Shown here in pieces: positions 19,823 through 64,000 of a DNA stretch of 64,000 bases. Under the pieces are notes generated by a model. That model searched no databases, had not been told where the DNA came from, and worked only from the letters and a program-made list of their open reading frames with translations. The first letter of the stretch is position 1; every line of letters starts with the position of its first letter. The stretch spans positions 12,326,576-12,390,575 of the forward strand of contig CM049309.1 of NCBI GenBank assembly GCA_026874595.1. The letters run 5' to 3'. The translations under genes and the position numbers were made by a program. The DNA is from Sipunculus nudus. Lineage: Eukaryota > Annelida > Sipuncula > Golfingiida > Sipunculidae.

Positions 19823-19874
<52 letters not shown>

Positions 19875-19893
19875 AAGAGAGAGCTGGACTGCC

Positions 19894-19926
<33 letters not shown>

Positions 19927-27098: not shown

Positions 27099-28977
27099 GT
27101 ATCCGCCAAAACAGAGTTTTGCGGATACCATGTTTTCAGCCCGCCGCCGCCGCCGCGTAGGTGTCCGGGGAACTCCTCCGTAACCGCTTGGCGGAATTTT
27201 ATGAAACCCGGGATTAATTATGTTCGGGTCACATGTGAACTGCTGCGCCCCGATCCATTTGTGCGTCTGTTTTCATACATAAACCCACATATCTCGGGAA
27301 CCGTTTAACCGATCAGTAAAAATGTTTGTACAAATGTAGCCCTTGGATAGCTTTATAACATACACAAAAATGGTGGCGCAACCTGCATCCATGTTTGCAC
27401 AATGTCCATCTGTTCATCTGCTTCGGGGTAAAATCACTCATATCTCTGCAGTGGTTTGACTAATTTACCTATAATTCGGCATGCGTATACATCCTGGATA
27501 GCTTTCTTGATTTTATGATAGGTGGCGCCACCTACATTCACGTTCACGCTGCAGACATCAAAGCTCATATCTCGGGAATCGTTTGACCGATTGGGCCAAA
27601 ATTTTGCATGTGTGTGGATCTCACATAGCTCTTTATCATAGGCAAAACTGGTGGCACCACCTGCAACCATTTTTGCACAGCGTCTGTCTGTTTGTCTGCC
27701 GTGGGCTAAAATCACTCATATCTCTGTAGTGGTTTGACTTATCTGCCTAAAAATTTTGCGTGTTTATACATCTTGGATAGCTTTCTCGATTGTTTTGGCA
27801 GGTGGCGCCACCTTCATTTATGTTAATGCTGCAGACATCCAAGCTCAAATCTCAGGACTGGTTGGACATATCTCCCTGATATTTTGCATGTGTATAGATC
27901 TCATATAGCTCGTAATCGTACACAAAATTGGTGGCGCCACCTGCCACCATTTTCGCACAAGTCCTTATGTTTGTCTGCTGTGGGATAAAATCACTCATAT
28001 ACATGTAGTGGTTTGACTTTCCTGCCTAAAATTTTGCATATGTATACAACTTTGACAGCTTTCTTGATTTTATGACAGGTGGTGCCACCTACATTCTAGT
28101 TTACGCTACATACATCCAAGCTCATATCTCGGGAACCGTTTGAGGGGCCACCTGCAACCATTTTTGCACAGCGTCCGTCTGTTTGTCTGCCGTTTGCTAA
28201 AATCACTCATATCTCTGTAGTGGTTCGACTTATCTGCCTGAACATTTTGCGTGTTTATACATCGTGGATAGCTTTCTGGATTTTTTGGCAGGTGGCGCCA
28301 TCTACATTTATGTTAACGCTGCAGACATCCAAGCTCATATCTCGGGAAACTTTTGACCAATTGGGCCAAAATTTTGCATGTGTATAGATCTCACATAGCT
28401 CTTTATCATACACAAAACTGGAGGGGCCATCTGCAACCATTTTTGCACAGCGTCCGTCTGTTTGTCTGCCACGTGCTAAAATCACTCATATCTCTGTAGT
28501 GGTTCGACTTATCTGCCTAAAAATTTGGCGTGTTTATACATCTTGGATAGCTTTCTGGATTTTTTGGCAGGTGGCGCCACCTACATTTATGTGAACGCTG
28601 CAGACATTCCGGCTTATATCTCAGGACTTGTTGGATATATCCCCCTGAAATTTTGCATGTGCATAGCTGGTGGTGCCACCTGCCACCATTTTCTCACAAG
28701 TCCTTCTGTTTGTCTGCTGTGGGATAAAATCACTCGTATACATGTAGTGGTTTGACTTTTCTGCCTACAATTTTGCATATGTATACAATTTGGATAGCTT
28801 TCTGGATTTGTGGTAGATGGCGCAACCTACATAAACATTTCGGCTGCAGACATCCATGCTAATATGCAACACACCTCACTCTATTTCCCCTTGCCACTCA
28901 ATCCATGCCTCACTTCACCCGTTCAACTCTGATTTTGGCGGATACACGTAGTCGCTTGTCAACTACCCGTATTCTAG
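27099..28977 (+). mobile_element. E-family element, most complete copy
   Basis: It starts with a hairpin GTATCCGCCAAAAC / GTTTTGCGGATAC (27099-27128) and ends with the inverted copy TTTTGGCGGATAC (28933-28946), a small stem GTAGT..ACTAC and CTAG|TT at 28974-28977. The body consists of about 290-base tandem units with ctcatatctcggga, the palindrome GGTGGCGCCACC, and gtctgtttgtctgcc. Length 1.88 kb, no transposase ORF. Confidence 0.8.
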
Positions 28978-29698
28978 TTGTATTAAATTGTTTTCACTCC
29001 AATAATTTATGAACCCCAAATACATGTGATATGCTGACATTGGCCCTCAAAGCAGTGCTATAGTTGAAGACCCGTCTGATCATTAGTTATTTCATCGCCG
29101 TTCGTTGGTTGCATGGTTACTTAGTTTGGTAAATTAATGAACAGTCCATAAATTTGTTTTAGGTAATCTGAATATTTTTTTTTATTTCAGTAGCCGGTAA
29201 TAAACTTAATTCTTTAAGATGTCATTTAGGCGGATGTTTGGGGGTATGTTTGCAGGGGGGCAGGCTTTGAGTGTCAGGGGTTAGAGGGCAACCGAAGCAC
29301 TATATGATCTAATAGCGCTTAAAAGTGTGTCTGAAAAAGTCCATCAGTAATATCATTATCAATTTTTACTGAGATATATTCAATATAACAAGTAACATTA
29401 ATTTTTGAACTGGTATCATTAAAGAGATACTATGCACATACCTGAGATAGGTCTATTATTATAGACCGGTCATCTGTAATATGCATGCTGAAAAAAGCAG
29501 AGCAAATCTAATATATTGTATATCAGTGATATTGTTTATATATATTACTGTATCAGTGTATCAGTATTTAAGAAGACTCTGGTATATTACCTTATATTGC
29601 CATGCATGTTTTCCTTCCAAGCTTTTGCAAGTTCCACAATATTTCACAAGTTGCCAAGAAAAAAATTTAGAGACTGCATGTAGATTCCCTGTATTAGC

Positions 29699-29818
29699 AT
29701 CCCCAAATTATGGAACAATCTTTCATATGCTCTCCAGTCTTCGAGCAGTGTCAATGTTTTTAAACGGAACTTTAAAAACATACATGTATATGTTAAAAGA
29801 AGTTTTAAATTAACATGA
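29699..29818 (+). pseudogene. Remnant of a non-LTR retrotransposon ORF2 3' end
   Basis: One frame reads IPKLWNNLSYALQSSSSVNV then FKRNFKNIHVYVKRSF and a stop at 29816-29818. The K-LWN-L...S...FKRN-K pattern is typical of the last residues of LINE reverse-transcriptase ORFs. Upstream coding is broken by stops. Only the tail is recognisable. Confidence 0.4.
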
Positions 29819-30986
29819 CAGAGTCGTGGTTAATATATATTATTTGTAAAATTGAATCTCCTGAATGCTATTTAAAGTGTAATTGGAAGATTTCATTACT
29901 GTTATAAGCGCTTTATTAATGTAAATGTAATGTAACATTGTCCTTAAAATGAAATTAAGTTTGAAACTTATTGAAAAAAAATAGATATGGGTTGTACATA
30001 TTTCCCCATGATATGGAAGGCAACAGATAATTCTGAATCAATTTGATCGTAAAGGTTATTTTTCTTTATCTTGCAATCGTGGACATCAAAATCAGTAAAT
30101 ATATATGCATAGCATATATATGTATGAATATTCTATGATCACATACACTATATTGTGAATGTACTATGATCATGTCGTATAAGACAAGTGAATAATTTTA
30201 ATAGAGATCAAACTATACCGTTTTATCCGACGACAGGATCACGGACAGCGGGAACCAGTGTCATCCGAGTTCGCAGTGTCTGAAAGGCAAAGTGGCAGTA
30301 GTACCGAACTGTTTTTATATGATCATGGCTGGTGTTACGCCGCAAGCAAGGTTGTGAGTTTAAATTGTGACCCAACCCGCTCAATAAATTATAATCTGTT
30401 TTGCTGTTAAATTCCCTTTTAAACGTTTGAAGTTTTTCTAAAAAAATATTACAAACACCGCAGTTGTCGGCCGAATTAATAATTCTACGGGCAGACCAAC
30501 ATTTGAGTGCTGATGTGAAAAGTTTTGGGAAAGTTTATTATGTTTATACAAATATTAAACTTGGAAGAAAGAGATGTAAATCATACTTTTTATATTTTAT
30601 AGATATAACCATTCATTGGCAAGGAAAATTTTTACAATAAAAAAAAAAGTGGGGGCCGGTAAAATTCCTGGAGAGACGGTAAAATTGTTTTCCTGCCCGG
30701 TTCCCTTTGCCCGGGGAAATGTTCCTCACATTTAACCCTGTGATAGATTAAAATTAAGGAGGCTGCCAATCATTTTTGTCAATTAAGGGAAATAACAGTG
30801 TCACGCAGAGGTCCAGCTGGGGTCGTAAGGTGGCGCCATCTAGTAAGCATACAGAGAACAATAACATAACGTTCACCGCATTACTTATGGTAGCCTATCA
30901 TTTCGCATATGTATTGTAAAATGAATAATCATTAGGGGATAAGCCTATGGCATTTATTTCACAAACCTGAGGCGTCTGCTGCGAAC

Positions 30987-31004
30987 ATGATGGCAGCGAA
31001 TAAT
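30987..31004 (+). CDS. GTF2F1: GTF2F1 exon 1 (start)
   Basis: This 18 nt coding segment (MMAANN) ends at donor gtgagc in phase 0, as required by exon 2. The ATG has A at -3 (aacATGA); the second ATG, directly after it, has a G at +4. An upstream ATG at 30325 with a weak donor was rejected because it leaves phase 2. The start is inferred from phase and short length, as in human RAP74, whose VRVPK motif also lies close to the N-terminus. Confidence 0.68.
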
Positions 31005-34000: not shown

Positions 34001-37000
34001 TTGAAAGAATATAAGCAGGCATATGACATAGACCAGATGCCTAAGTTTGGTGCTGGCAGTGAGTTTGGTCGAGAACAAAAGGAGGAGGCACGCAGGAAGA
34101 AATATGGCATAATGATAAAAAAATACAGTGTGGATGACCAGCCATGGGTCCTCAGGGCTGGTACAGGCAAACAGAGTAAAAAGTTAGTGATAATTTCCTT
34201 ATATATTGAGAAATATATTAAAGCTAGGTGTCTGTGATTAAATGGCAAACAATATTACTTGGAATAGTATGACTGTCAGGAAAATGTTTGATTCTTGAAA
34301 GGAACACTAGATAAGTCTGGTTATCAGTTTATGTATGTAGATATATGGTAGAAATAAGTTCCTCGGGCAGTGGTAAACCACCACAATTTATGATGCTCAT
34401 GTATCACTGCTGCCTGTTATATTACCTATTCATGAAATTAGGTGCTAGATAATGGGGTGGCACCAAATGTTTATATGATGTAACTTGCAGGTTATCAAAT
34501 GCCTGTTTACTGTACAGTCTAGAATTTATATGGCTGCAACCATTATACTGGATTGCAGCACTCTGTGCCTTAAAACATGATATTTTCCAGAAGGTACTCT
34601 AACAAGGCAGTCTTTAATGGCAATCTAATATAACAGTTTTCCAAGAAGGCTGATGCTTGTATAGTTTCCAATGTCCCACTGTCCCTTGGTTACCTGGTAA
34701 ACTGAATGCAGGCATAGTTGCAAAGGTCTTGTGTCAACTGATCAGTTCAGTCAGTCACAGAACTTAAATCACAAACTAAGCTATTGGTAGATTGGTCCAA
34801 CATGCTGTCTTAACCCCTTATGGCTAGGAACCTCTTATACCAAGGAATCAAAGCCCAACAAACAGTTCTTTTGAAAACATGATGTGTTGATAAACACTGC
34901 GTAAGGGTCATAGATATATCAATATACAGAGTTATTTTTCTCCTACAGGTTCAAGGGGAGTAAAGAAGGCGGAGTGTTGGAGAATGCGTCATATTATATC
35001 TTTACCCAGTGCCCTGATGGGGCGTTTGAAGCACACCCTGTACAAGAGTGGTACAACTTCACACCGGTCATCAACTACAAATACCTCAACTCAGAGGAGG
35101 CAGAGGAAGAGTTTGTCAGGTCAGTCTCATAGGTTACCAGAGGATTAGGCTAGGTATTTATCCGGCAGTAGCCTTATTGGCTGTTATAGTCATATTCAAT
35201 CATATTAGCTGAGCAGGTGAGATTTTTCACGTTCTGCCCACAGCCAGGGTGAGTTCTACAGGCTTAATGGGAAAACTGTGCCCAACAGCTGTGTTTCGCT
35301 CACAAACGAGTGTGCCTTTTTGGGGTTCCTTTGTGGTATGACCCAGCAATGGGGATGATTACACACCCAGGACCTCCAGTTGCAGCAGTTAGTGGGCCTG
35401 GTTAACACCAGGATATAAAATGAGGTGTAGTGTGTGATTCTTCCCTTTCACGTAGTCCAAAACCTGAGTGTAATTCTGCAGATGTACATATATACTTAGT
35501 TAAGTTAGCTTTTAAAAAATTTAGGGAGTTTCCTCCAACAACAAATATATTCCATTATATATGAGTTTCTGATTTCATTCATTGTATATAAGATAGTGTA
35601 AGTCAGTTCCAATTTATTTGAATTTCTGAATTTTTACATGGCTGGCTATAGTCCATTCCACCCCTTATATCCACCTATTTTTTTGCTAAGAAAATTATTA
35701 TTGGTTACATTTTGAGGGAAAAATTGTCATGTTGGGAAGTAGGTTGTAGGGTCTGATTTTCAATAATGTAAATAAATACCTACCTAACATATCAATAAAA
35801 AAAACAGAATAATTAAAAAATATGAGAAATCAGTCTACATATTACAGTATTTCAGACCCACTTATTGCAGTCAAGGTCACCTGCAAAAACACCATCAGTT
35901 GACAGCTGCAACTTGGATGATGTCATGTAAACACTCTAAAAATATGACCAGCTAAAACAGCTAATTTGAAAAGAGTAAAAAATGGTGTGAAACATAAACT
36001 ATAGATTTTAAGTTCAGCTGACTGAAAGTCATATAAGCATAACATTCACCCTTTGTCCGGCGTCCGTCTGTTTAGCTGTCTGTCTGTCCATCTGTCCGTT
36101 AACCAGGCACAATTCCTAACCACTAGACCTAGAATCTTCTCTCTTGACATGCAGGGAGGCCCGTGAAAAGTCACGTTGGAAACGTGAAATTAGGTTTCTG
36201 TTACCCATAAACTCTGAGCTATGGGGCTCCAAAATACCCCCCAGAATAATGGAAAATTTGGTACAAAAGCTCAAGGAAACTGAACAACTATTGCATTGAT
36301 TTGCATGGATATTAATCATGGAATATTTCATCAGTTTCTACAGACTGGTGGCGCCGCCTGGTTTTTTTTATTATTAACCATTTTTAGCTCAGCTGACTAT
36401 AAGTCATCTGAGCTAAAGTCGTGGTCTTTTGTCCGTCGGCTGTCCGTCCGTCCCTTAAACTGGCACGTTTTGAAACTGTTAGACCTACGAATCCAAAATT
36501 TGGCTAACTGTTAGATGCCCCCAAAATCTCCTACCATACTGAAAATTGGGTCATTAGGACTTGGTTCCTTCGAGATATTAAGGAAAAACCTCCATTTTCC
36601 ATAAAAAACATTGTTACAATAAAAGACTGCCTAATATCAAAACCACTGATCTGATTTTGATCATAGTGAATATGCATATTCTTCCATACATTTTCTATGT
36701 ACATACCAAAAATTAGGTCAGTATTGCGTAATATGTTGAAGTTATGGGCCGGAACATTATGCACCTCATAAAAAATCAGGAAATATATTAACCCACTTAA
36801 CATAAGAATGGCTGAAGCTAGAGACTTCTTTTCAGGGATATAACTCCATTTAATCAAGATTCAATTGTATACCGAAATTTAGATCTGAATTTTTCAAATT
36901 TTACAAGTATGAAATATGTACCTAAAATTTTGCCCAAATTTGGGCATGGCACGTTTTTCCCTGTAAGTACTGTTGGTTTAATTTTCATATCATGCACACG

Positions 37001-40000
37001 TAAGGATTTCAGCTTCTAAATTCTGAAATTTGAAAGGAATTGACCAAAAATGTAGCTTTTTTTTTATTACATTTTTAGCTCAGCTGACTATAAGTCATCT
37101 GAGCTATAGTCTTGGTCCATTGTCCGTCCTCTGTCTGTCCGTCCGTCCGTAGATGTGGCACGTTTTGAAACCATAAGACCTAGGAATCCAAAATTCGGCA
37201 TAATGTTAGATATTCCTAAGATCTCCTACCAAGCCGAAAACATGGTCTTTGCGACTTTGTTCCCTTGAGAAATTAAGGAAAAACCTCAATTTTTTATTAA
37301 AAACCTATTTTCACACTTCAGGACTGCCTAATACCTAAACTACTCATCTGTTTTTCCTCATATTTACCATAAATATTCCTCTATATAGTTCCTATGTACA
37401 TGCCAGAAATTGTGTCTGTATTATATAATTTAAAAAAGTTATGGGCCCAAACAATGCATTTTGTAAAAAGTCAGGAAAGATATTTGATCACTTAACACAA
37501 AACATGTTAAAGCTATGGACTTTTTTTCCAGTAATATAACTTTAATTAATCAAAAAATAAATTGTATACCCAAAATTAGATCAAAATCTTTTAAATTTTT
37601 TGAAATATTAACAAAAATAAAAAATTGGTACCTTAAATTTTGCCCAAGTTTGACCATGGCACGTTTTTTTTTAAGTACTGTGGATTTAATTTTCACAGCA
37701 TGTTTTTGTTAGCATTTTGTCTGTTAACACCAAAAATTTGAAACCAGTTGATCAAAAACTGTAGGTTTAATTCAAGTTTTCAAGCACCATGTCACATATT
37801 GTTTACATCAAGCTAGTGTTATGCAGTTTGCAAGAGCTCAGCTCCCTGGCTTCAGCTCTCAGTTCCTAAAATTTGGCATACAATTAGATGTCTCCAAAAT
37901 CCCCTACCATGCCAAGAATTTGGTCACTAGGACTTAATACCTTCGAGATATTAATGAAAAACTTCATTTTTCCATTAAAAACCCATTGTTACTTTTCAAG
38001 ACTGCCTAATATCAAAACCACCGATCTGACTTTAATCACATATAATATACATATTTTTCTATACATTCTCTATGCACATGCCAGAAATGATGTCAGTATT
38101 GCGTAATTGTTTTAAGTTATGGGCCCAAACTTAATGCACTTTGTAAAAAATCAAGAAATATATTTACTCCCTTAACAAGAGGATTGCTGAAGCTAGAGAT
38201 TTTTTGTCAGGGATGTAACATTATTTTATCAAGATTCAATTGAATACCCAAAATTAGTTCTGAAATTTTCAAATTTATAAGTTATTAATATAAATATAAA
38301 ATTAGTACATTAAGTTTTGCCAAACTTTGACCATGGCACGTTTGTTTCCTGTGAGCACTGTTGATATAATTTTCATATCATGCACACATAAGGATTTCAG
38401 CTTTTTAGTTTAGAAAGCTGAAAGAAATTGGCCAAAAATTGTAGCTTTTATTAATGTTTTTATGAGACCATGTCAGACCTTAGCTCTCCCCAGCCCCTCT
38501 TGAGTCACCTGTATGTTGACCTTGTTGACCTTTCATCAAATTATGCACGCTTGACGGGAGGCATACACTGGGGCAGCCAGGCAGCTTATGGCCAGCTACA
38601 GTTGATCCAGGTGTCCAACCCAACTCATCTAGTAGTTTTAACTAACAACATAACAATAAACAATAAATTAATAAATTTTTATTGGTTTTTAATAACAAAT
38701 TAAAGAAAAATGAAAAAGGAATTTGTTAGTTGATAATAACAGGAAATTAACTTGCAGTTACTGATGATATAAGAATCTTGTATCAATTGATAGAATGTCA
38801 CGTATTCCAATTAACACCATGCAGTCTCCTATGGTATTTTTCAGTTCAATTTTTATGATAAAAAAATAAATCATATTATTCATTACTAATCATTATGGAT
38901 CATATGAAGGAAATTAATGATAGACAAAGATGCAGTTGAAAATATTAATCTAGATTCCTGCTGTGTCTAGTGTGTACATTGATGTGAAATTAGTCCAAAA
39001 TGAATATATTACATTTATTTTTTTTAATATGAATAAAAGCCATAAAACCAGGTACTTATGATCATTATTTAAATGTGTGAATTTTGTATATTCTGGATTC
39101 TCAACGTCATTATTTGGTGAAAACTGAATAAATACCAGACATGGTGCGAATATTTTGCAAATGTATTTGAATACGAATATGAATATGTACTCCATTATAA
39201 AATTTCTTGCATAAGAATGGGAATTCAGGTAAAAATGAAAGTAAATGAACACCAGTGCAAATACTTTCAAAATGTATTCATGAATGCATTCATGAATATA
39301 TTCTTTGATATTATTTCAATATTCATTTCAGTTGTATTTTATTTTTAAAATACTATTCTCATATTATTTTAAAAAGAAATTATATTTGGGACAATTTGTA
39401 ATTATTTTTAATAAATAATTTAACTCTTATATTATATGTTCTTCTTATAAGTTATATGGCCAAGTCAAAATCTGTGTTACAATAGCACTCCATTTGTTAA
39501 TAAAATAAATGAAATCAATCCTCTTCCCTGTCTCCAAAGATACTATTAAAATCATACATAAGCTAAACACCCACAACTCATAATACAGCTTATATTTATT
39601 TCCACACAAAACAAGCATGTGTCTCATTTCTAAATCATATTTTTTTATCATATATAACAGCTGAGCGCCGTGACCCATGGGTCCCTTGTTAATGAGACCA
39701 TGTCACACCTAGGCTGTACTGAAGCCCCTCTATAAGTCCCCATATTGACCTTTCATGCTTGAAGCGGGGCATATACTGCAGCCAGCCAGCTCTTGGCACA
39801 ATATTTGTTATTAAATTTTAATAAATAGTTAAACTCTTTTTATTATATGTGCTGCTTATAAGTTATATGGCCAAGTCAAAATCTGTGTGACAATAGCACT
39901 CTATTTGTTAATAAAAAAAATGAAATCAATCCTCTTCCCTATCTCCAAAGATACTATCAAAATCATACATAAGCTAAACACCAACAACTCATAATACAGC

Positions 40001-49857: not shown

Positions 49858-49924
<67 letters not shown>

Positions 49925-52900: not shown

Positions 52901-55900
52901 ATGGGTCAGGAGTTTACTCAGTGCAGTAGCTGCATTCTATTTATAGCTTTGGCAGACTGCCAACTGTGTCAGATTATGCAACAGGTCAAGAGTTCACTCA
53001 GTGCAGCCAGGTTCAGGTCAAAAGTTCACTCAGTCTAGCCAGGTGCAGGTCATGAGTTCACCCAGTGCAGTAGTCTGAGCAAGCAATTTGTCACAGTTCA
53101 CTCGGGGCAACAGCTTTTCTCATCTAAGCCTGGTCAGCCCCATGCATCAGACTCAAGGTAAGTTTGATGTATTGGCCTAATATTTTGACCTGTCTATGTG
53201 TCTTTGATGGCTTTCTCGCTCACAAGACAGGTGTCGCCACCTACCATGACTTTTGCACACGTTTTTCTCAGGAGGGGTTTGATATATCAGTCTGAAATTG
53301 GGCGTATGTATAGTATCTCTGATAGCTTCGTTGTATACAAGACTGGTGGTGCCAGCTACAATCTTTTTAGTGTTGTGTGCACCTATGCCAGAATTTCAGC
53401 AGTGATGTTTGTGTAATTTTCTTATTCAAAATGTTTAGTACTTGCATAGTTCATATACATGAACAGTAATGGTCCAGCATTGAAGCATTATACCTGGTGT
53501 ATTTCCCAATGCACAGGTTAGCATTAGGCCTGTAGGCCTTGTTTTGTTTTTACGCCTTTTAATACCCCCATAATTGCCACTTGACAGTACTGTAAGCATT
53601 ATAAGTCAAAAACTAATGGACAGATTTCTTTCATATTATGCACATGTAGAGAGATGGGTTATGGGATTAGGTCTATTTACATTTGGGTCATGACCTTTAC
53701 CATGAGAGTGGCCTTGACCTTTAATGTGTCCATATTTGGTGAAAATCACACACCTCTTATATCTCCAGTGTTGATAGCCATATGGATTTCAAACGTGACT
53801 TATGTATGGCCCACTACAAAAGCTAGAACCCTATAGGTTCTAGGGTCATGAAGTCAAAGGTCAAGGTCACTGGACTCGCATCTTAAAAGATACTGTGGAT
53901 GCATTTTAAGCCAAACTTTTATCCCAAGTCTTGCATCTTGAATATATAGCTCAATTGCCAATAGTGGATGATCCATATCAATTTTGGGGTCACAAGGTCT
54001 AAGGTCAAGGCCAAAAGGAGCTATCTGTCAAAAAATTAGTTTCTGGATGATAATTCCTGCTTTTATTAATGTATTGATTTCAAACTTGACTTATATATGT
54101 CCCATTGAAAAAGCAAGACCCGAATTGATTTTGGGGTCATGAGGTCAAAGTTCAAGGTCACAGGACACATCTTTAAAAAGATGTGGATGCATTTTCAGCC
54201 AAACATTTCATCTCAGATCTTTCATCTTGCACATATAGTTCACCTGCCAAGAGAGGAAGAACCCTATCAATTTTGAGGTCACAAGGTCAAAGCCACAGGA
54301 GCCATCTGTCCAAAAATTAGTTTCTGGATGATAATTCCTGCTTTTATTGATGTATAGATTTCAAACTCGACTTGTATATGTCCCGTTGGAAAAGCAAGAC
54401 CGGTATTGATTTTGGGGTCATGAGGTCAAAGGTCAAGATCACAGGACACATCTTTATAAAGATTGTGGATGCATTTTCAGCCAAACATTTCATCTCAGAC
54501 ATTTCATCTTGCACATATAGTTCACCTGCCAAGAGTGGAAGACCCCTATCAATTTTGAGGTCACAAGGTCAAAGGTGAAGGTCACAGGAGCCATCTGTCC
54601 AAAAATTAGTTTCTGGATGATAATTCCTGCTTTTATTGATGTATAGATTTCAAACTTGACTTGTATATGTCCCATTGGAAAAGCAAGACCCGAATTGATT
54701 TTGGGGTCATGAGGTCAAAGGTCAAGGTCACAGGACACATCTTTAAAAAGATTGTGGATGCATTTTCAGCCAAACATTTCATCTCAGACATTTCATCTTG
54801 CACATACAGTTCCCCTGCCAATAGAGGAAGGCGCCTGTCAATTGTGAGGTCACAAGGTCAAAGGTGAAGGTCACAGGAGCCATCTGTCCAAAAATTAGTT
54901 CCCGAGATGATAATTCAAGCTTGGATTAATATATGGATTTCAAACCTGACATATATGGCCCATCAATAAATCTTGACCTCTATTTATTTATATATAAAAG
55001 TGGATGGTCAATATCAATTTTGGGGTCACAAGGTCAAAGGTCAAGGCCACAGGAGCCATCTGTCAAAAAATTAGTTTCTGGATGATAATTCCTGCTTTTA
55101 TTGATGTATAGATTTCAAACTTGACTTATATATGTCCCATTGAAAAAGCAAGACCCCAATTGATTTTGGGGTCATGAGGTCAAAGGTCAAGGTCACAGGA
55201 CCAACATCTTCAAAAAAATTGTGGATTGATAGATGGAAGAAACAATAATTGCTTGCCAAGTGTCAGTATATGCTGCTTTTAATGGGGGCCTATTTTTAAA
55301 GGGGGGGCAGTTCTATGTCTGGGGATACTCTGGCACCCGCGGTGCCAAGAAATGTCTAGTTTATCTATATTCCTGGGGTTTTTTTTATAAAAAGTCAGCT
55401 GAAAAGCATTTTGTATTGGGAAAATAAATTTTAAAGTCATTTCAAGTAGTGACCACTTTTGTGTTCAGATGGCAGCACTTGGTTTACCATTGGCAGATTG
55501 CCAGTGCCTTGATGTTGGCCATTAGCCAAGATGATGTCAGCTCTATAAATAGTTTTGGCACAGTGCCAGGATTGGAAGAAGTGCAGCCAGGTATAGGTCT
55601 AGAGTTCACTCAATGCAGTAGCTGCATTCTATTTATAGCTTTGGCAGACTGCTCACTGCATCATATTTGGCACCCAAAGTTCAGCCTGAATCAATTTATA
55701 GCTTTGGCAGACTGCCATCTGTGTCAGATTATGCAACAGGTCAAGAGTTCACTCAGTGCAGCCAGGTACATGTCAAAAGTTTACTCAGTCTAGCCAGGTG
55801 CAGGTCAAAAGTTCACTCAGTGCAGTAGCTTAAGGCAGCAATTTGTCACAGGTCACTAGGGGGCAACTGCCTTACTCACCTTAGCCTTGTCAGCCCAGTG

Positions 55901-58900
55901 CATCAAACTCTGGGGAAGTTTGATGTATTGGACTGATATTTTGACCTGTCTATGCGTCTTTGATGGTATTCTCATTTACAAGACAGGTGGTTCCACGTAC
56001 ATTGACTCTTGCCCAGTGTATGTGCCTGCTTATTTCTACAGAGGAATTTGATATATCAGCCTGAAATTGGGCATATTTATACATATTGAATAGCTTTGTC
56101 ATATTCAAGACTGGGGGTGCCACCTACATTAATTTTTGCACAATGTGTGTCCCTGCTTATTTCTCAGGAGGGGTTTGATATATCAGTCTGAAAATTGGGC
56201 ATATGTGTCTATCTCTGATAGCTACGTTGTATACAAGACTAGTGGTGCCAGCTACAATCCTTTTTGTGTTGTTTGCCCCCTTGCCAGGATTTCAGCAGTG
56301 ATATTTGTGTAATTGTTTCTTATTAAAAATGTTTAGTACTTGCATTGTTCATATACATGAAAAGTAATGGTCCAGCATTGAAGCATTATACCTGGTGTAT
56401 TTCCCAATGCACAGGTTCGCATAAGGCCTGTAGGCCTTGTTTTAATTTTTATGCATTTTAGACCTGTAACAAAACTGTCAACTGTTAACATGGCACAATT
56501 CCTAACTGCTGGACCTGGAATTTTCTAACTTGACATCAAAGGAGGTTCATAAATATATCTCTGTGGAAACCTCAAATTAGGTCTCTGTAACCCATATTCT
56601 CCGAGCCCTCAGATTAATTAAAAATTTGATTTTAATTTTATTTCAATTTCATCTTAAAATACACTTGTATTTTCAAGTTCATCTGAGCATCATGGCCCAT
56701 GGGCCACTTGTTTGTAAAATTTTTGATTCCAATATCAAGCCATCAATTCCATATACAGCATTCTAGCAAATTATTGATAAATATGAACTTTCTTTGGTAA
56801 ATATAAAATTATCTAAAAAAAACCCAGGTGGACACAGGTTGACAAAACAGGGTATAATTGATTGTTTCATTAATTAAAATTAAGTTTTTCAATTTAATTC
56901 CTAAAGGATTTACTATATTTTCTGAGTTTGCTCTGCCTCAGCATAGGTTTCTGGAGAACTCCTCCGTAACCACTTGGCAGAATATTTTAAAATTTTGAAT
57001 TTTGGTCGGGTCACATTTGAACTGCTGAACCCTCATTTTTGGCTGACCTCTGACCTTTCCTCTCTGCCCAGCGTCCATTTGTGCGTCTATTTTCACACAT
57101 AAACCCACATATCTCGAAAACCGTTTGACCGATCAGGCTAAAAATTTTGCAAAAATGTAGCACTTGAATAGCTTTATAACATGCACTTATAAATGGGGTC
57201 CCCACCTGCTACCATTTTGGCACAGTGTCCATCTATTCATCTGCCTTGGGTTATTATCACTCATATCTCTGCATTGGTTGGACTTATCTGTCTAAAACTT
57301 TTCATGTTTATACATCTTGGTTAGCTTTCTTGATTTTGTGGCAGGTGGTGCCACCTACATCTCAGGACCAGTTTGCTGTATCCTTTTGAAATTTTGCATG
57401 TGTATAGATCTTACCTAGATCTTTATCATACACAAAACTGGAGGCCCCATCTGCAACCAGTTTTGCACAGCATCTTTCTGTTTGTCTGCTGTTGGTTAAA
57501 TCACTCATATCTCAGTAGTAGTTTGACTTATCTGCCTAATATTTTGCATGTTTATACATCTTTGATAGCTTTCTTGAATTTGTGGCAGGTGGTGCCACCT
57601 ACATTTATGTTTACACTGCAGACATTCAGGCTTATATCTCAGGACTGGTTTGACATATCCCCCTGAAATTTTTCATGTTATAGACCTCACATAGCTCTGA
57701 CTCAGAAACAAAATTGGTGGCACAACCTGCCACCTTTTTGGCACAGCGTCCTTCTGTTTGTCTGCTGTGGGATAAAATCACTCATTTACAAGTAGTGGTT
57801 TGACTTATCTGCCTATAATTTGCATATGTATACAACATGGATAGCTTTCTGGATTTTGTGGTAGGTGGCGCCACCTACACACACATTTTGGCTGCAGGTA
57901 TCCATGCTAATATGCAACACATCCCCTTGCCACTCAATCCATGCATCACTTCACCCGTCCCACTCTGATTTCGGCGGATACACCTGACTACCCATATTCT
58001 AGATTATGTTATCATAACTTTTCACTCTGATCAGTAACAGTTGTTAATGTATGGGTCCAAATTTGCACTTAGTCTCTGTTGTATTTATATTTGTTTTATT
58101 AATATTTTCAAATTTATATATGTTTGAAGAATGTTTTGTAATTCATTACAATGTTTACATATTTCCTTACATCACTTGCAGCTGACATTAAATCACAAGT
58201 AAAACATAATTATAGTTTTATATATAAAATGACTTCACAGAATCAGATACTAAATTTTTCATATTATATCTTATATGTTTTGTGTTGATTTATTTCTAGA
58301 CGAGACAAAACAATGAACTACTTCTCCATCATGTTAAAAAAACGTCTGAAAGGAGAGGAGGATGCTGACATTGATGGAGAGGAAGGAGGCGAGAAGAAGA
58401 AGAAGAAAGGCAAGAAAAAAAGAGACTTTGTAAGTCAGAAGGTTATCACATCATAATCATCAGTGTTATTGCCTGAGTCTGTTTCAGAGGAGCATGATTT
58501 CATGTAATCATTATTGTGAATGTCAGCTTGAAGGATGTGAAGAACATGCTTTCAGCACTGTTTCCTTAGCATCCCACCACTAGGATAAGCAATCCTTGCA
58601 AGAGAAGATAACTCCAGATATTTTACAGATCTCTGCCAAATCAAGTATGTGTATATAGAAGGGTATGATCTTTTTATGCCCCCGCCACAAAGTGGCCGGG
58701 GCATATAGTTTTACCAATGTCCGTTCTTCTGTCCTTCTGTCCTTCCGTCATTCCGAAATCAAACAGTTGTACAGACTTTTTTTCGCAATGCCTGCAGATA
58801 TTGGCCTGATTTTTGGGTGTGTGGGCAGATATTGACCAGTTACAGATCGAGTTCATGTTTCGTCCCAGTTGACCGACTTTTGACAGTTTTACGGCTCCTG

Positions 58901-61900
58901 AACATAGAAAATTTCACGAAAAATATAAATTTTCATGACAAGTGCACATGTTTGGACTTTTTTTTTGCAGTGCCTGCAGATACGGACCTGATTTTGGTGT
59001 GTTGGCAGATAATGACCAGTTACAGATCGAGTTCTTGTTTTGTCCCAGTTGTCCTACTTTTGACCATTTGACTGCTCCTGAACATAGAAACTTTCATGAA
59101 AAAATAGAAATTTTCATAACAAATGCATATGTACGGACTTTTTTTCCGCAATGCCTGCAGATACCGCCCTGATTTTTTATGTGTGGGCAGATAATGACCA
59201 GTTACAGATGGAGTTCGCGTTTCGTCTCGGTTGACCTACTTTTGATTGTTTTTTATGGCTCCTAAACATAGAAAATTTCATGAAAAATATAAATTTTCAT
59301 GATAAATGTACATGTACAGCTGTTTCTAGCCCTCAGCTCATAGGCTGATGGGTTATTGTCGTCACCCAAGCTGTCCGTCTATCGGTCCGTTCATCTTTCT
59401 GTCCGGTGTCCGTCTGTTCCGCTTCTGTTAACTTTTACCTTGTGAGCGGGATATCTCTAAAAGGATTCACCGTTGGAATTTTATTTCATCAGTGAAGATG
59501 TACATAGATAAAATCTCGGTCAAGTTCGAAGATGGGTGACCTTGACCCATTTTTCCACATTTTAGAGCTGATTATAGAAAAACACTCAGAAGCTTATATC
59601 TCAGGAACCATTGTGTGGATTTTCACAAAACTTACTATGATCATTGGGACTGATGGTCTGTATGTGCTGCACAATTTTGGTGGCGCCACCTGCAATTTCT
59701 GATTTTTTAATGAAATTTTATCGGATTTTCAATTTTGGCCTTTTGTGCAGGATATCTCTAAAGGTATTCAACATAGGAACTTCATTACTTCAGTGCTATT
59801 GCATTATATTAACAAAATCTTGGTCAAGTTCAAAGGTGGGTGGTCTTGACCTACTTTTCAAGGTCACAGAGATTAGAATAGAAAAAAAACTTATTTCTCA
59901 GGAAGCATTTGATGGATTGTTATGAAACATGGTACATACCTCTCCAATGTAAATTTATAACTGATTATCAGCTTTTGCTAATATTCTAGTTTCGCAATGC
60001 AATGCTTACAAATACTGGCCTAATGTTTGGTCTGTGGGCGCATAATGACCACTTACAGATCGAGTTCGCGTTTCGTCCCAGTTGACCTATTTTTGACCAT
60101 ATGACAGATCCTGAACATAGAAAATTTCATGAAAGACAGAAATGTTCATGAAAAATGCACAAGTATGGAACTTTTTTCACAATGCGTGCAGATACTGGCC
60201 TGATTTTTGGTGTGTTGCTTGATAATGACCCTAACAGATTGAGTTTGCATTTTGCCCTTGATGACCTACTTTTGACCTTACAACACCTCCTGAACTTAAA
60301 AAATTTTACATAATTTAACAAATGTTTCTAATTTGCCCCAGGCGGGGGCATTCGTGTCGTTCCGACACATCTAGTTTAGTTGGGTAATCCTGGACCTTGA
60401 ATTGATCCATATGGGTGAAAATTTCACAAATCATTTGATATCTTAAGAGTAAGTGGATGGGTTTCCCAAAAGTGTGTATGACCAGAGATCTTGGATCAAA
60501 CATATCTTGTCATTGGTTTTACCCAAAAAATTACCTTGTACAAAAAGACTTGTGAAGCCACCTTCAGTAGTTTCTGTTTTCGCACAGTTTCACTCCACAT
60601 ATAATTGACAACTTATGTAACAAATAAAAATAAAATATGAATTTCCTTTCAAATAAACATGTGCTTAAATGTGGGTCAGAAGTCAGAGCCTCATCATGAA
60701 TAGCTCTGTTTAATAAAGATATGTGGTGCCACCTGTGCAGCATGTCCATATGAATATGTGGGACTTTATAAAGGGAGTGTATAGATATAACTCCTATAAA
60801 GCCTAAGGATAATGCTGCATCTGTGATGGCAAGATGATTTTCTTGTCATCATCCATGACAGCTTCAGATAGACAGGATGTAACCATTGTTTGTGTGTCTG
60901 CTTCAGATGCTCACAGACATGGATGAGTGGGCTGTGCTGTCTGATGAGGACAGTGATGGGGATGGAGAAGATGATGATGGTGGGTCACCTGTACTCTTTA
61001 TTCATTCCTTATCAACCTCCCTTTTGGTGACAATGAAAAAATATATAAACTTTGAAGAAAACTTATCATTCTACTATAAATCACTGTTCTGGGCATCACC
61101 GATTCAGGTCAATCCTCTGGGTACTGTTTCATAATTAATGTTCAGTTTGTCCCCAAACTCTGTCAGCAAATAGATTTGTACCATGGGCATTTCTTTAGAC
61201 CTCTCCCAGGTCACACCCCTGTAGCCCTATCGAATTTCAATTGATTCCCCCCCCCCCCCCATCATATCAAGGGCCTGCCACCTTCCAACAAACCTGACAA
61301 AAGCACTTTGCGGCATTGTTTTCCATATCAGGGTCACTTATGAAGCAAGAGAGGTCTAGTTTTCTACTGTAGGTAGCATTGTAACAAGTTGTAACAGAGA
61401 TCACCTCACACATGAATTAGCAGGGCTAAGGTCCGCTAGTCATATTAGTAACCCAAATGTGACATGAAGGTTTTGATTAGGAACTCCACAGTCTATATTT
61501 TACAATATTTTGATGTATTCCCATGATTTGACAGGTTGAATGTATCACTGCATTAGTAGCTGCCTGATTTAGATGATGATATTTGCAGTGTGTACAAGCG
61601 AGTATAAAACATTTCTCCTTCTTGGAGCATTCATTTGTTCTTGCCTTGAATGCATTAAATGGGTTTGAATATTGTGGAATATAAATCTATTAATATTTTC
61701 TACATTTTAAATTGCAGACTTGTAATGCTTATTTTAATTCTGACTTTTGTTTTGCTGTCTGACTTTCTGATATCTTTGACAGAATAAGAATATTTTATCG
61801 GGATCATATGACTTCTTTGTGCATACATAATTGTTTGTGATGGACTGTTTTATTTATTAATCATTGATTAATCAGTTTAATTGATTATGAAAGAAAAGGA

Positions 61901-62117
61901 TCAATTATCGATATAATTGATAAATTGGCACACCACTAATGATCATGTGCAAGCTTCTCTGAATGTTTATTGCAGAAGACAAACCCAAAAAGCCAAAAGC
62001 CAAACAACCAAAGAAGAAGACACGCAAGGAAAAGCGGAATTCTGATGATGAAGCTTTGGAGGAAAGTGATAGTTTTGATGAGGGACAAGAAGTGGACTAT
62101 ATGACAGACACAGACAG
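30987..62117 (+). CDS. GTF2F1: Gene 2: TFIIF large subunit (RAP74), N-terminal part, 8 exons, continues past window
   Basis: Exons 30987-31004, 32513-32562, 33551-33620, 33977-34182, 34949-35119, 58300-58429, 60907-60979 and 61976-62117 chain in phase to 286 residues plus two bases. The product is the alpha subunit of general transcription factor TFIIF, which pairs with the small subunit (RAP30) and acts with Pol II in the nucleus during initiation. Evidence: SVRVPKATDKKFSILKFG, the MPKFGAGSEFGREQKEEARR stretch, DQPWVLR, SYYIFTQCPDGAFEAHPV, EWYNFTP, and in the linker EGQEVDYM-like GQEVDYMTD, all closely matching vertebrate RAP74 in order. Residues about 1-172 are the dimerisation domain; about 180-286 are acidic and lysine-rich linker. 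Human RAP74 is about 517 residues, so the C-terminal winged helix lies beyond the right edge. Intron 5 is 23.2 kb. Confidence 0.93.
31005..32512 (+). other. GTF2F1 intron 1
   Basis: AT-rich, with a G-run at 31196-31207 and the piggyBac-type MITE (31471-31744). No other feature recognised. Confidence 0.7.
31471..31744. mobile_element. piggyBac-type MITE with TTAA target duplication
   Basis: TTAA then CCCTTTACTGTTT at 31471-31487, and its exact inverse AAACAGTAAAGGG then TTAA at 31728-31744. CCC..GGG ends flanked by TTAA are the hallmark of the piggyBac superfamily. At 274 bases with no ORF it is non-autonomous. Confidence 0.82.
32513..32562 (+). CDS. GTF2F1: GTF2F1 exon 2
   Basis: It encodes KPSASSSEKAFSVRVP; VRVPK is the first conserved RAP74 strand. 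Acceptor ttttctttcag, donor gtgagt, phase 0 to 2. Confidence 0.9.
33551..33620 (+). CDS. GTF2F1: GTF2F1 exon 3
   Basis: It encodes KATDKKFSILKFGSNKFDFT then ECGQ, aligning with the second strand region of RAP74. Acceptor catattacag, donor gtaaga, phase 2 to 0. Confidence 0.92.
33977..34182 (+). CDS. GTF2F1: GTF2F1 exon 4
   Basis: It encodes TVIARENNLKEYKQAYDI, DQMPKFGAGSEFGREQKEEA, RRKKYGIMIKKYSVDDQPWV and LRAGTGKQSKK. This is the most conserved stretch of the dimerisation domain (GAGSEF, EEARRKKYG, DQPW). Acceptor taatttcag; the donor gttagt is weak but gives the right phase 2. Confidence 0.93.
34949..35119 (+). CDS. GTF2F1: GTF2F1 exon 5
   Basis: It encodes FKGSKEGGVLENASYYIFTQ, CPDGAFEAHPVQEWYNFTPV and NYKYLNSEEAEEEFV. 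The SYYIFTQCPDGAFEA and WYNFTP motifs are near-identical to vertebrate RAP74. Acceptor ctcctacag, donor gtcagt. Confidence 0.95.
35195..35430 (+). repeat. Dispersed repeat I, copy 2
   Basis: The second copy of the repeat seen at 1183-1430, at the start of GTF2F1 intron 5. The two are clearly related but diverged. Confidence 0.55.
36010..36385 (+). mobile_element. B-family element B3, 5' part
   Basis: It begins AGTTCAGCTGACTGAAAGTC, then a GTCC/GTCT tract and GTTAACCAGGCACAATTCC, followed by one B unit to a ggtggcgccgcc variant (36347-36358). It is cut at a T-run by the next element (36386). A B-type right part at 56445-56714 may be its other end. Confidence 0.65.
37077..39690 (+). mobile_element. 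A-family element A6, complete copy
   Basis: Hairpin head 37077-37105, GTCC-rich tract to about 37150, conserved block tggcacgttttgaaacc, then several ACGTGCCATGG-type sub-blocks inverted relative to the gene 1 copies, and a tail CAGCTGAGCG..GACCCATGGGTC..CTTG ending about 39690. The 5' GCTCAGCTG and 3' CAGCTGAGC form a subterminal inverted repeat. Length 2.6 kb; no protein-coding capacity seen. Confidence 0.82.
39388..40200 (+). repeat. Tandem duplication, unit about 405-410 bases
   Basis: Unit 1 (about 39388-39790) and unit 2 (about 39791-40200) both run from the tail of an A element through CATGGGTCCCTTGTT and on into aatgagaccatgtcacacc...cagccagctcttgg. They are nearly identical, indicating a recent event that crossed an element boundary. 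Confidence 0.8.
41111..44264 (+). mobile_element. B-family element B1
   Basis: Head hairpin 41115-41143 (AGCTCAGCTGACT..AGTCATCTGAGCT), GTCC/GTCT tract 41160-41217, then six tandem units of about 330 bases (GGCACAAATCGTAAC, GACCTAGAATCTTC, GTCTCTGTTACCCATATCC, GACTGGTGGCGCCACCTGTA, TTTTTGAGACCTTT). After the sixth unit an E element is inserted (43191-44081). The tail is GTCAGCTGAACG..GACCCATGGGTC..CTTG at about 44262. Confidence 0.82.
43191..44081 (+). mobile_element. E-family element inside B1
   Basis: Starts GTATCCACCAAAACGAAGTT and ends CCCGTATTCTAG|TTTT. It occupies the same position in B1 as the copy in B2 but is about 275 bases shorter, lacking about one internal unit. Confidence 0.8.
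44265..44763 (+). mobile_element. C/D fragment between B1 and B2
   Basis: 44265-44413 matches part of the C element unit at 59180-59330 (tgtgggcagataatgaccag); 44414-44763 matches the left half of D at 59331-59706 through GGTGGCGCCACCTGCAATTT. It stops at a T-run where B2 begins; the rest of D is missing. Confidence 0.8.
44764..48131 (+). mobile_element. B-family element B2
   Basis: Head hairpin 44765-44793, shorter GTCC tract, six tandem units, the inserted E element (46807-47971), and a tail ending GACCTATGGGTC..CTTG about 48129. It is near-identical to B1 from the fourth unit onwards, including the position of E, so the two are copies of one composite. Confidence 0.83.
46807..47971 (+). 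mobile_element. E-family element inside B2
   Basis: Hairpin head GTATCCGCCAAAAC / GTTTTGCGGATAC, tail CCGATTTTGGCAGATACA then CCCGTATTCTAG. One more internal unit than the copy in B1. Confidence 0.82.
48131..50300 (+). mobile_element. Right-hand remains of element X and related A sequence
   Basis: 48131-48480 continues X (matches 39073-39430). 48640-50150 matches, inverted, the A3 region 18850-20170, including CT tracts (48886-48977, 49836-49924), the block ctgtcaacagctcatcaaa and the palindromic tgtacatgcc block. No intact tail was found. Confidence 0.6.
50362..56444 (+). mobile_element. F-family element(s), with G array inside
   Basis: The head GAACCTGTGAGCTTATGCGA is followed by a GTCGTGCGTCGTCTGT tract. 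A related head occurs at 51213. Tails with TTCGCATAAGGCCTGTAGG then CCTTG|TTTT end at 56444, and a variant at about 53549. The 5' CTTATGCGA and 3' TCGCATAAG are exact inverted copies. The body contains GGTGGCGCCACC units (50831, 51594) and ttcactcagtgcagccagg tandem units. How many insertions this represents is not resolved. Confidence 0.6.
53550..55215 (+). repeat. G array 1: about 290-base units with GGTCA half-sites
   Basis: Units start near 54039, 54318, 54607 and 55070 with ttagtttctggatgataatt and each contain the phrase gaggtcaaaggtcaaggtca or close variants. Four or more units; the first 500 bases and the unit near 54889 are more diverged. Confidence 0.75.
56915..58002 (+). mobile_element. 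E-family element, 5'-truncated
   Basis: It carries typical E units (cacatatctcgaaaaccgtt, GGTGGCGCCACC at 57864) and a tail TTTCGGCGGATACACC then CCCATATTCTAG at 57999-58002. The head hairpin is missing. Confidence 0.7.
58300..58429 (+). CDS. GTF2F1: GTF2F1 exon 6
   Basis: It encodes RDKTMNYFSIMLKKRLKGEE followed by an acidic stretch and KKKKKGKKKRDF. The NYFSIM strip closes the dimerisation domain; the lysine-rich end begins the linker. Acceptor tatttctag, donor gtaagt, phase 2 to 0. It is reached only across the 23.2 kb intron 5. Confidence 0.93.
58676..60374 (+). mobile_element. C-family element in GTF2F1 intron 6
   Basis: Head hairpin ATGCCCCCGCCAC-AAA-GTGGCCGGGGCAT (58676-58703), then a GTCCTTCTGTCC tract, then about 150-180-base tandem units (gcctgcagatactggcctga, gataatgaccagttacagatc). 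The tail is GGCGGGGGCA (inverse of the head), a stem GTGTCG-TTC-CGACAC, then AT and CTAG|TTT. Length 1.7 kb including nested D. This is the clearest example of the shared architecture. Confidence 0.85.
59331..59994 (+). mobile_element. D-family element nested in C
   Basis: Head hairpin AGCCCTCAGCTCATAGGCTGATGGG, then a tcacccaagctgtccgtc tract, body with GGTGGCGCCACC (59679), tail CTGATTATCAGC and ATATTCTAG|TTT at about 59993. The C unit reads continuously across it if D is removed (acagctgttt / tttcgcaatgc). Confidence 0.8.
60907..60979 (+). CDS. GTF2F1: GTF2F1 exon 7: acidic linker
   Basis: It encodes MLTDMDEWAVLSDEDSDGDG then EDDD. It corresponds to the aspartate/serine-rich linker of RAP74, which is poorly conserved in sequence but conserved in composition. 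Acceptor tctgcttcag, donor gtgggt, phase 0 to 1. Confidence 0.87.
60980..61975 (+). other. GTF2F1 intron 7
   Basis: No element recognised; a C-run lies at about 61246-61260. An ORF reading through exon 7 into this intron is a read-through, not a gene. Confidence 0.6.
61976..62117 (+). CDS. GTF2F1: GTF2F1 exon 8: basic then acidic linker
   Basis: It encodes EDKPKKPKAKQPKKKTRKEK, then RNSDDEALEESDSFDEGQEV and DYMTDTD. The SDDEA-E-SD...GQEVDYM string matches the human linker. Acceptor tattgcag, donor gtgaga, phase 1 to 2. The coding sequence continues beyond the window. Confidence 0.92.
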
Positions 62118-62149
62118 GTGAGATATGTGTGTTTTATCTGTATAGAAGT

Positions 62150-63395
62150 GAATAAAGTTCAAGTTGCGAAAGGTATAAAGTGACACCTCCATTCTTGAGT
62201 TTGTCTGTCCGTCTGTCTGACTGTCCATCTGGAATTGGCTTGTGGATCGATTTCAAGCAAAACCATTTAACCAAACCTTTCATCTTGCATATAGCACTCA
62301 CCCACCTATAGATGAAGAACCCTATTGATTTTGAGGTCACAGGGTCATAGGTCACAGCCACAGGGTCTACTTCTTGAAAAACCTTGTGGACCCATATAAA
62401 GCCAAACCATTTGACCAAAACCTTTCATCTTGAAAATATGGCTCACCCACCCATGAATGAAAAACCCCATCAATTTTGAGGTCAGAGGGTCAAAGGTCAT
62501 GGCCATAAGGTCCACTTCTTGAAAAAGCTGTTGGACCCATTTAAAGCCAAACTGTTTGACCTTAACCTTTCATCTTGAACGAATGGCTCTCCCACCCATG
62601 TATGAACACCCCTATATTTCGAGGTCATGAGGTCAAAGGTCACTGTCACAGGGCCCATTTCTTCAAAAAGCTTATGGACCAATTTAATGCCAAACCATTT
62701 GACTAAATACTGTTATCTTGCAAATATGGCTAACCCACCCATGAATGAAAAACCTTATCAATTTTGAGGTCAGAGGGTCAAAGGTCATAGCCACAGGATC
62801 AAAGCCAAACTGTTTTACCTAAACCCCTCACCTTGAAAAAATGGATGAAGAACCCTATTGATTTTGAGGTCAAAGGGTCATAGGTCACGGCCGCAGGGCC
62901 CACTTCTTGAAAAAATTGTGGACCCATTTAAAACCAAACTGTTGGACCAAAACCTTTCATCTTGAACATATGGCTCCCCCACCCATGAATGAAGAACCCT
63001 ATCGATTTTGAGATCAGAGGGTCAAAGGTCACGGCCACAGGGCCCCCTTCTTGAAATAATCTAAAGCCAAACCGTTCGAAGAAAACCTTTCATCTTGCAC
63101 ATAAGGCTCACCTACCCATGGATAGGGAACACAGGGTCAAAGGTCACGGCCACAGGATCCACTTCTTGAAATAGCTTGTGGACCCATTTTTAGCCATACC
63201 GTTTGACAAACACCTGTCTTCTTGCTCATGTAACTCATCCACCTATGGATGGAGAACCTTATGTAGTTTCCCATTCTTTAGAAAGATTTTTCAAAGCATT
63301 TAATGCAAAACTTTTTATCCCAAACCTTCGATCTATGGTTACAGGCCAATTGGGGAAGAACACTATTTATTTTGAGGTCAAAAGGTCATAGGACC
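62150..63395 (+). repeat. G array 2: about 170-180-base units with GGTCA half-sites
   Basis: About seven units in GTF2F1 intron 8, each with cctttcatcttg, cccacccatgaatgaagaac, gattttgaggtca, gggtcaaaggtcacggccac. It starts after a GTCC/GTCT tract (62200-62230). Related to array 1 in the GGTCA phrase and in the catcttg..atatg block. Confidence 0.75.
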
Positions 63396-63399
63396 CTAG

Positions 63400-64000
63400 T
63401 TAGCGCAGCTGACTATAAGTCATCTGAGCTATAGTCGTGGTCCATTGTCAGTCGTCCGTCCGTCTGTCTGTCCGTCCGTCTGTCTTGATGTCTGTCTGTA
63501 AGACTGGCACGTTTCGACACCATTGGACCTACGAATCTGAAATTCCCCATACAGTTAGATGTCCCCAAAATCTCCTACCATGACGAAAATTGGGTCAATA
63601 GGACTTTGTTCCTTCAAGATATTAAGGAAAAACCTCAATTTTTTATTAGAAATCTATTTTCACACTTCAGGACTGCCTAATATCAAAACCACTCATCTGT
63701 TTTTCTTTATATTTACCATTAATATTCCTCTATATAGTTCCTATGTACATGCCAGAAATTAAGTTAGTATTATTTAATTTAAAAAAGTTATGGGCCCAAA
63801 CATAATGGACTTTGTAAAAAAATCAGGAAAGATATTTGGTCACTTAAGACCAAAAGTGTTAAAGGTAGGGACATTTTTTCAGTAATACAACTTTAATTGA
63901 TCAAAATTTAATTGTATACCAAAAATTAGATCAAAATCTGTTAAATTTTTTTAAATATTAACAAAAATAAAAAATTGGTACCTTAAATTTTGCCCAAGAT
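63400..64000 (+). mobile_element. A-family element A7, 5' part, runs off the window
   Basis: Head hairpin 63402-63430 (one substitution in the left arm), GTCC/GTCT tract 63450-63500, then tggcacgtttcgacaccatt and blocks matching 37150-37640. The right part is outside the window. Confidence 0.8.

Follow-up and report, generated by a model that had tools for sequence, protein, structure and literature searches.

HINE and DINE-1/INE-1 elements are non-autonomous partners of Rep/Helicase/Endonuclease Helentrons and are characterized by subterminal inverted repeats (subTIRs), a 3′ stem and a TT target (PMC4067079). The closest described relatives of the elements studied here are the 11 Cg_HINEs of the oyster Crassostrea gigas, which bear a 5′ subTIR, a complementary inverted repeat (IR), a GTCY/GTCC/GTCK microsatellite, a 3′ subTIR and a 3′ palindrome, and which insert at T-rich TT sites without duplication (PMC7492417). 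Palindromic subTIRs have also been reported for mite HINEs (PMC4067079). Here we describe repeats of this type in a 64 000-nt stretch of the Sipunculus nudus genome (C4:12326576–12390575; genome of 1.43 Gb in 153 contigs), referred to as the window. Its families are like Cg_HINE in subTIR and IR, GTCC-type microsatellite, tandem-repeat body, TT insertion and, for some families, 3′ palindrome, compared by description only (PMC7492417). Their architecture is already known from the oyster elements; the elements themselves are new family members. As far as our searches show, strict co-orientation with transcription is undescribed: in the gene loci tested the HINEs lie in the sense direction, across families without common body sequence.

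Cg_HINEs are reported in both assembly orientations, and the sections covered give no orientation relative to genes (PMC7492417). The term ‘strand bias’ does not occur in the paper on the Helitron Helraiser (PMC4778049), and Helitrons are not mentioned in a review of strand asymmetry (PMC10030826). Barley Helitrons prefer an asymmetric target, the passages seen of that study holding no gene-strand result for Helitrons (PMC5738225). Among the matches listed in the open-licence full-text literature searched, we found no report of sense-only Helitrons or HINEs. The orientation rule was also absent from the claims of the original prediction, which had been made from the window.

Gene strand was taken from Pfam kinase matches. 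From 138 matches we fetched 60 loci with partial-domain exons, presumed to belong to multi-exon genes, and 8 single-exon open reading frames (ORFs). Loci were picked by rank and exon type, unseen; the outcome for the first 40 of the 60 was already known when the second 20 were selected. They were scored by BLAST against a library of the window elements, with a block limit of 60 bp, and by head and tail motifs; the 161 cross-matches of the parent library all have one orientation. Elements were present in 24 of the 60 presumed multi-exon loci and were sense-only in all 24 (one-sided 2^-24 = 6e-8), sense meaning that the direction from the 5′ hairpin head to the 3′ palindromic tail runs with transcription. 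All 21 BLAST blocks and all 21 head or tail motifs, two overlapping sets, were sense, and reversed patterns gave no matches. The first 40 loci had yielded elements in 16, with 18 of 18 blocks sense, five of them under 40 bp; these five are excluded by the 60-bp limit, and those at L005, L015, L024 and L032 return as motifs while that at L004 does not. Among the single-exon kinase ORFs one locus in eight held an element, again sense, too few to serve as an intergenic control. Two control repeats, X1 (2 sense, 4 antisense) and X2 (4 sense, 2 antisense), gave 6:6 overall in the 68 kinase loci. X1 (about 250 bp) and X2 (about 480 bp) with TTAAAGG-like ends (e.g. L006:460–691, L008:464–932) are dispersed and occur in both orientations in introns.

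A shared strand was also observed along contig C1. Strand tables held the first 100 listed places each for families A, C, E and F (all on C1), 40 of the 100 listed for the G-type head, and the C1 places only for X1 and X2 (60 and 75 of 100 listed, 30 and 33 of them in the range compared with HINEs). At the listed places below 1.2 Mb the heads lie on the minus strand (A 73/75, C 6/6, E 5/5, F 9/9, G 2/2), and by 1.228–1.237 Mb A, C and E are on the plus strand. Beyond 2.3 Mb, pairs of heads from different families (C, E and F) are on the same strand in 5/5 cases at up to 2 kb, 24/25 at 2–10 kb, 29/33 at 10–25 kb and 31/41 at 25–50 kb; farther apart the values are 36/68 (50–100 kb), 95/155 (100–200 kb), 151/260 (200–400 kb), 279/539 (400–800 kb) and 442/1094 (0.8–1.6 Mb). 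Agreement of C, E and F pairs within 25 kb (53/58) was matched by none of 1000 circular shifts and none of 1000 strand permutations, and that within 10 kb (25/26) by 2 of 1000 circular shifts. Unrelated families share a strand over tens of kilobases, and in the gene loci tested this shared strand is the transcribed sense. The control repeats X1 and X2 form no such blocks among themselves, with 11 of 25 neighbours on C1 within 100 kb agreeing.

The window itself holds two divergent host genes and elements on both strands. Its features are as follows:

5746–7978, minus strand: family A; head 7951–7978, tails 6072–6102 and 5746–5776
8051–10325, minus strand: family A; head 10298–10325, low end set by the library cut
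12220–24204, minus strand: host gene; exons within 23965–24204 (DUF7044, below cut-off), 15249–15548 (DUF7042) and 12220–12474 (DUF7043)
17777–22451, minus strand: family A; heads 22424–22451 and 21457–21484, tails 18437–18467 and 17777–17807
27099–28977, plus strand: family E element; self-paired head at 27099, inverted subterminal motif 28933–28945, end CTAG|T at 28977
34013–62109, plus strand: host gene TFIIF-alpha (GTF2F1-like); exons 34013–34183, 34947–35120, 58298–58420 and 61969–62109
36386–40100, plus strand: family A copies; heads 36386 and 37077, tails 39658–39688 and 40070–40100, 3′ part duplicated (412 bp)
41115–44263, plus strand: family A element with 336-bp tandem monomers; head 41115, tail 44233–44263, E nested
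43191–44081, plus strand: family E nested in A in the same orientation; flanks ...TATTTTT / TTTTAAAA...
44765–48128, plus strand: second family A copy, with nested E at 46807–47971
50374–56439, plus strand: family F; head 50374, tails 53527–53541 and 56425–56439 (AAGGCCTGTAGGCCTTG|T)
56680–56710, plus strand: family A tail of a truncated A copy
56900–58002, plus strand: family E-like copy; end CTAG at 58002, start set by the library cut, head not seen
58676–60374, plus strand: family C element; head 58676, tail 60350–60374, G-type internal head near 59330
63402–64000, plus strand: family A element, cut by the window end

The plus-strand elements between 36 and 60 kb lie between exons of the divergent TFIIF-alpha gene, including its 23-kb intron. 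On the minus strand, the A elements at 17.8–22.5 kb lie between matched exons of the minus gene and those at 5.7–10.3 kb past its last Pfam-matched exon. Two plus-strand features fall outside the exons found, the A head at 63.4 kb and the E element at 27.1 kb; the latter is either in the interval separating the divergent genes or in intron 1 of TFIIF-alpha, whose first exon was not found. The original prediction had placed the repeats from 27099 onwards; the further A elements on the minus strand at 5.7–22.5 kb extend this range. In the two A elements at 41115–44263 and 44765–48128 E is nested at the same place, and they are near-identical over long stretches: the A+E compound element is locally duplicated inside one intron.

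The heads, inverted subterminal motifs and ends of families A, C, E and F were found in the window at the predicted positions, and their heads, together with the G-type head, are genome-wide repeats. The A head 13-mer has 42 888 exact genome matches (21 287 forward and 21 601 reverse) versus 6 for the reversed-pattern control; exact head matches number 2591 for C, 1952 for E, 3072 for F and 749 for the G-type, with none for each reversed control. The G-type head looks like an internal part of C, as 17 of the 27 G places that fall within the span of the C list have an exact C head 0.4–1.3 kb upstream on the same strand. We folded one window copy per family as single-stranded DNA and compared it with 200 shuffles. 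Head folds were −9.8 kcal/mol (z −3.65) for A, −12.9 kcal/mol (z −5.07) for C, −10.8 kcal/mol (z −6.92) for E and −9.7 kcal/mol (z −4.27) for the G-type, whereas no fold was seen for the F head (z 0.19; 112 of 200 shuffles at least as good). The 5′ subTIR with a complementary inverted repeat, a HINE feature, is accordingly present in A, C, E and the G-type head and fails in F. A self-paired head had been predicted for every family and taken to be undescribed; F departs from the former, and the feature was already published for Cg_HINE (PMC7492417) and for mite HINEs (PMC4067079).

GTCC tracts gave 31 window matches at up to one mismatch versus 0.04 expected, and the inverse of the head motif recurs near the 3′ end in A, C, E and F. 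The bodies comprise tandem arrays of 336, 278 and 289 bp. The proposed stem or palindrome before the 3′ end is strong in C (z −4.68) and moderate in F (z −2.54); in A the palindrome GACCCATGGGTC is present but its fold is unremarkable (z −0.51), and in E no stem before the 3′ end was found (z −0.97), each in one copy. The shared plan is not universal, since in the copies tested the F head is unfolded and E is without a 3′ stem. Tails end in CTTG|T or CTAG|T inside T-runs, and in the window and the loci T-runs precede most heads and follow most tails. A-type tails at L015:2951 and L049:137 end in CACTAG|T, not CACTTG|T, so a single family can have either CTTG or CTAG.

Terminal structure and T-run insertion support the assignment of the elements to non-autonomous Helentrons (HINEs), the class that the original prediction took them to belong to or to imitate; for A, the 3′ end is in addition found on Rep/helicase elements. 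An empty site could be reconstructed for one nested E: its flanks, once joined, match uninterrupted A monomers in alignment, with scores of 74–95 versus 42 for the best of 200 shuffles. At this one site no duplication beyond T's is seen; the monomers differ by a gap of a few bases beside the junction, and a duplication of T's alone would be invisible in the T-run. Canonical Helitrons differ in having 5′-TC, CTRR-3′ and an A|T target (PMC4067079): here the heads of A, C and E follow T-runs without TC and the sites are T|T. The CTAG ends of C and E fit CTRR, the CTTG ends of A and F do not. The features of DDE transposons or of miniature inverted-repeat transposable elements were likewise not seen, as the families' ends are asymmetric, the inverted motifs subterminal, and there is no duplication beyond T's at the one site.

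The genome contains at least 143 matches to PF14214 (Helitron Rep). At L043 (C17), the only locus in which domains were examined, a stop-free frame of 2342 amino acids matches the PF14214 Rep and a PIF1 helicase; at its C-terminus Exo_endo_phos scores below cut-off (20.5 versus 24.5 bits). The same frame has an N-terminal Herpes_teg_N-like domain (amino acids 63–210; 44.4 bits, over cut-off), which may correspond to the OTU-type protease known in Helentrons (PMC4067079). The L043 frame is followed, 1 kb beyond its stop, by a family-A tail (94% over 35 nt). An A-type tail in Rep orientation was present at five of the eight Rep loci examined (close at L043, L047, L048 and L049, diverged at L051) and not found at L041, L042 and L050. 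At the five tailed loci the tail ends 5174, 5168, 5176, 5266 and 5566 bases from the Rep match, a spacing which argues that tail and Rep frame belong to one element; for the tail test, five 3′ flanks had been placed by hand from the geometry of L043. A search at L043 found no matching 5′ head for the Rep element. The putative partner link runs through the 3′ end, and for family A only. Among the matches listed, PF14214 clusters in a few megabase-scale regions, e.g. C1:63.9–71.8 Mb, C7:46–50 Mb and C14:41–44 Mb, which are possibly pericentromeric; part of the C1 region (about 59–69 Mb) has few X1 and X2 copies among the places listed.

As the cause of the orientation we lean, with some reserve, towards an HUH transposase that joins the element into the non-template strand when germline transcription exposes it. 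Helentron Rep/helicase/endonuclease proteins would move the HINEs, their HUH nucleases acting only on single-stranded DNA. Germline transcription would displace the non-template strand in a bubble, an R-loop or a negatively supercoiled patch in the wake of the polymerase; T-runs of this displaced strand would be cut and joined to the single-stranded element. Because of this joining the element's top strand would always end up in the coding strand, and its second strand would be made at the next replication; because orientation would be fixed at birth, each copy would record the direction of past germline transcription. Whether integration might be strictly strand-locked to transcription, with a transposase that accepts only the displaced non-template strand and tens of thousands of copies forming a fossil strand-resolved map of germline transcription, we regard as evenly balanced. 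Helraiser, a canonical Helitron, offers a parallel in HUH chemistry on single-stranded DNA and in insertion preference: it cleaves single-stranded but not double-stranded DNA in vitro and is enriched at promoters as well as in gene bodies and highly expressed genes, which it prefers, and its authors proposed replication or transcription-driven melting as the source of single-stranded DNA for the initial steps (PMC4778049).

Several observations weigh against insertion into transcribed DNA as the cause. INE-1, of the same class, occurs in Drosophila introns in both orientations (PMC5624886), unlike the sense-only copies in the loci tested here. One antisense match (L040, 74 bp, 75%) was set aside as an AT-rich tandem; it corresponds to an AT-rich 13-bp tandem at 48347–48393 of the window, and on account of this match the library segment 48131–50340 was dropped before final scoring. 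Close discordant heads exist, A with F agreeing in 10 of 13 pairs at 2–10 kb, and comparisons of the X controls with HINE heads are few and not clearly random (8/12 within 25 kb, 17/26 within 50 kb), against a HINE–HINE agreement of 95/104 at 2.5–25 kb. The nearly all-minus stretch of 1 Mb on C1 is longer than a usual gene, and of ten samples taken from it five contained elements, four on the minus strand and one (L079) on the plus strand. The one exon recognised among the ORFs listed in these samples belongs to a minus-strand kinase, which we take to be RAF-like; LINE-like pieces, judged by eye, were also present, as were tandem arrays, which fill several samples (L074–L077, C1:480–793 kb). 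A further point is that all 60 loci are kinases and that the sequence read reaches only about 1.5 kb from an exon, the part in which purging would act most strongly.

Such purging is the main rival: insertion would be strand-blind and antisense intronic copies would be removed by selection, through premature polyadenylation or mis-splicing, to near-totality. We hold this possible but rather unlikely. The antisense strands of the library (31 kb) are indeed richer in poly(A)-like hexamers (AATAAA 34 versus 31, ATTAAA 41 versus 18) and in 5′-splice-like GTRAGT (11 versus 6), but 3′-splice-like motifs are far commoner in the tolerated sense orientation (24 versus 2). Selection on the orientation of intronic elements has been reported in people, although with the opposite, antisense bias (PMC3517506, PMC1794541). 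Furthermore, purging would have to be near-complete for unrelated families, also deep in a 23-kb intron, and the bias is equal in near and distant copies, with block identities to the window copies of 73–95.6% as a rough stand-in for age. A supply of target T-runs merely commoner on the coding strand of introns is hardly credible. The elements do end in T-runs, and a tail in L024 lies in an apparent polypyrimidine tract, yet with the elements masked, counts of T-runs versus A-runs along the sense strand of these 60 kinase loci are 447 versus 460 (at least 5 nt), 158 versus 159 (at least 6) and 1510 versus 1325 (at least 4). These counts led us to reject target-strand supply for the 60 kinase loci. 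The L024 tail, at 713, is directly followed by TTTTCTTTACTTTCAGG; apparently this A element occupies a 3′ splice-site polypyrimidine tract.

Transposition through single strands is known from the bacterial IS200/IS605 elements (IS608). IS608, not a family member, depends on lagging-strand replication (PMC4778049) and works alike in that a host process exposing one strand dictates orientation, unlike in that this process is replication, not transcription, and in bacteria. Orientation here could by analogy follow fork direction through the lagging-strand template, with genes co-oriented with forks, which we consider improbable. Orientation blocks do span tens of kilobases to about 1 Mb, and the flip in the window between divergent genes would be a plausible origin. 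However, 24 of 24 sense loci would need almost perfect gene–fork co-orientation, which in animals is only moderate, and strand agreement is at chance by 50–100 kb (36/68), about gene scale. As a cause of the blocks, replication polarity lost to the gene-relative strand test. Less probable still is that nested self-insertion, tandem or segmental duplication, or avoidance of double-stranded RNA from opposite copies in one transcript produced the shared orientation. E does lie inside A in the same direction, the A+E compound is duplicated in the window and two A tails stand in tandem at L048; but different families agree at 10–50 kb and 24 separate loci agree in absolute direction with their gene, and avoiding inverted pairs would neither favour sense over antisense nor bind unrelated families. 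This explanation already conflicts with the absolute sense rule.

Of the two sources of single-stranded DNA proposed for the initial steps of Helraiser, replication and transcription-driven melting, a sense-only rule that holds for unrelated HINE families would indicate transcription. If selection were responsible instead, the intronic bias would be unusually strong and opposite to that reported for human elements. A sense-only rule would also provide a natural assay comprising tens of thousands of events, and in HINE-rich genomes the orientation of the elements could then serve as a guide to gene strand and germline transcription.

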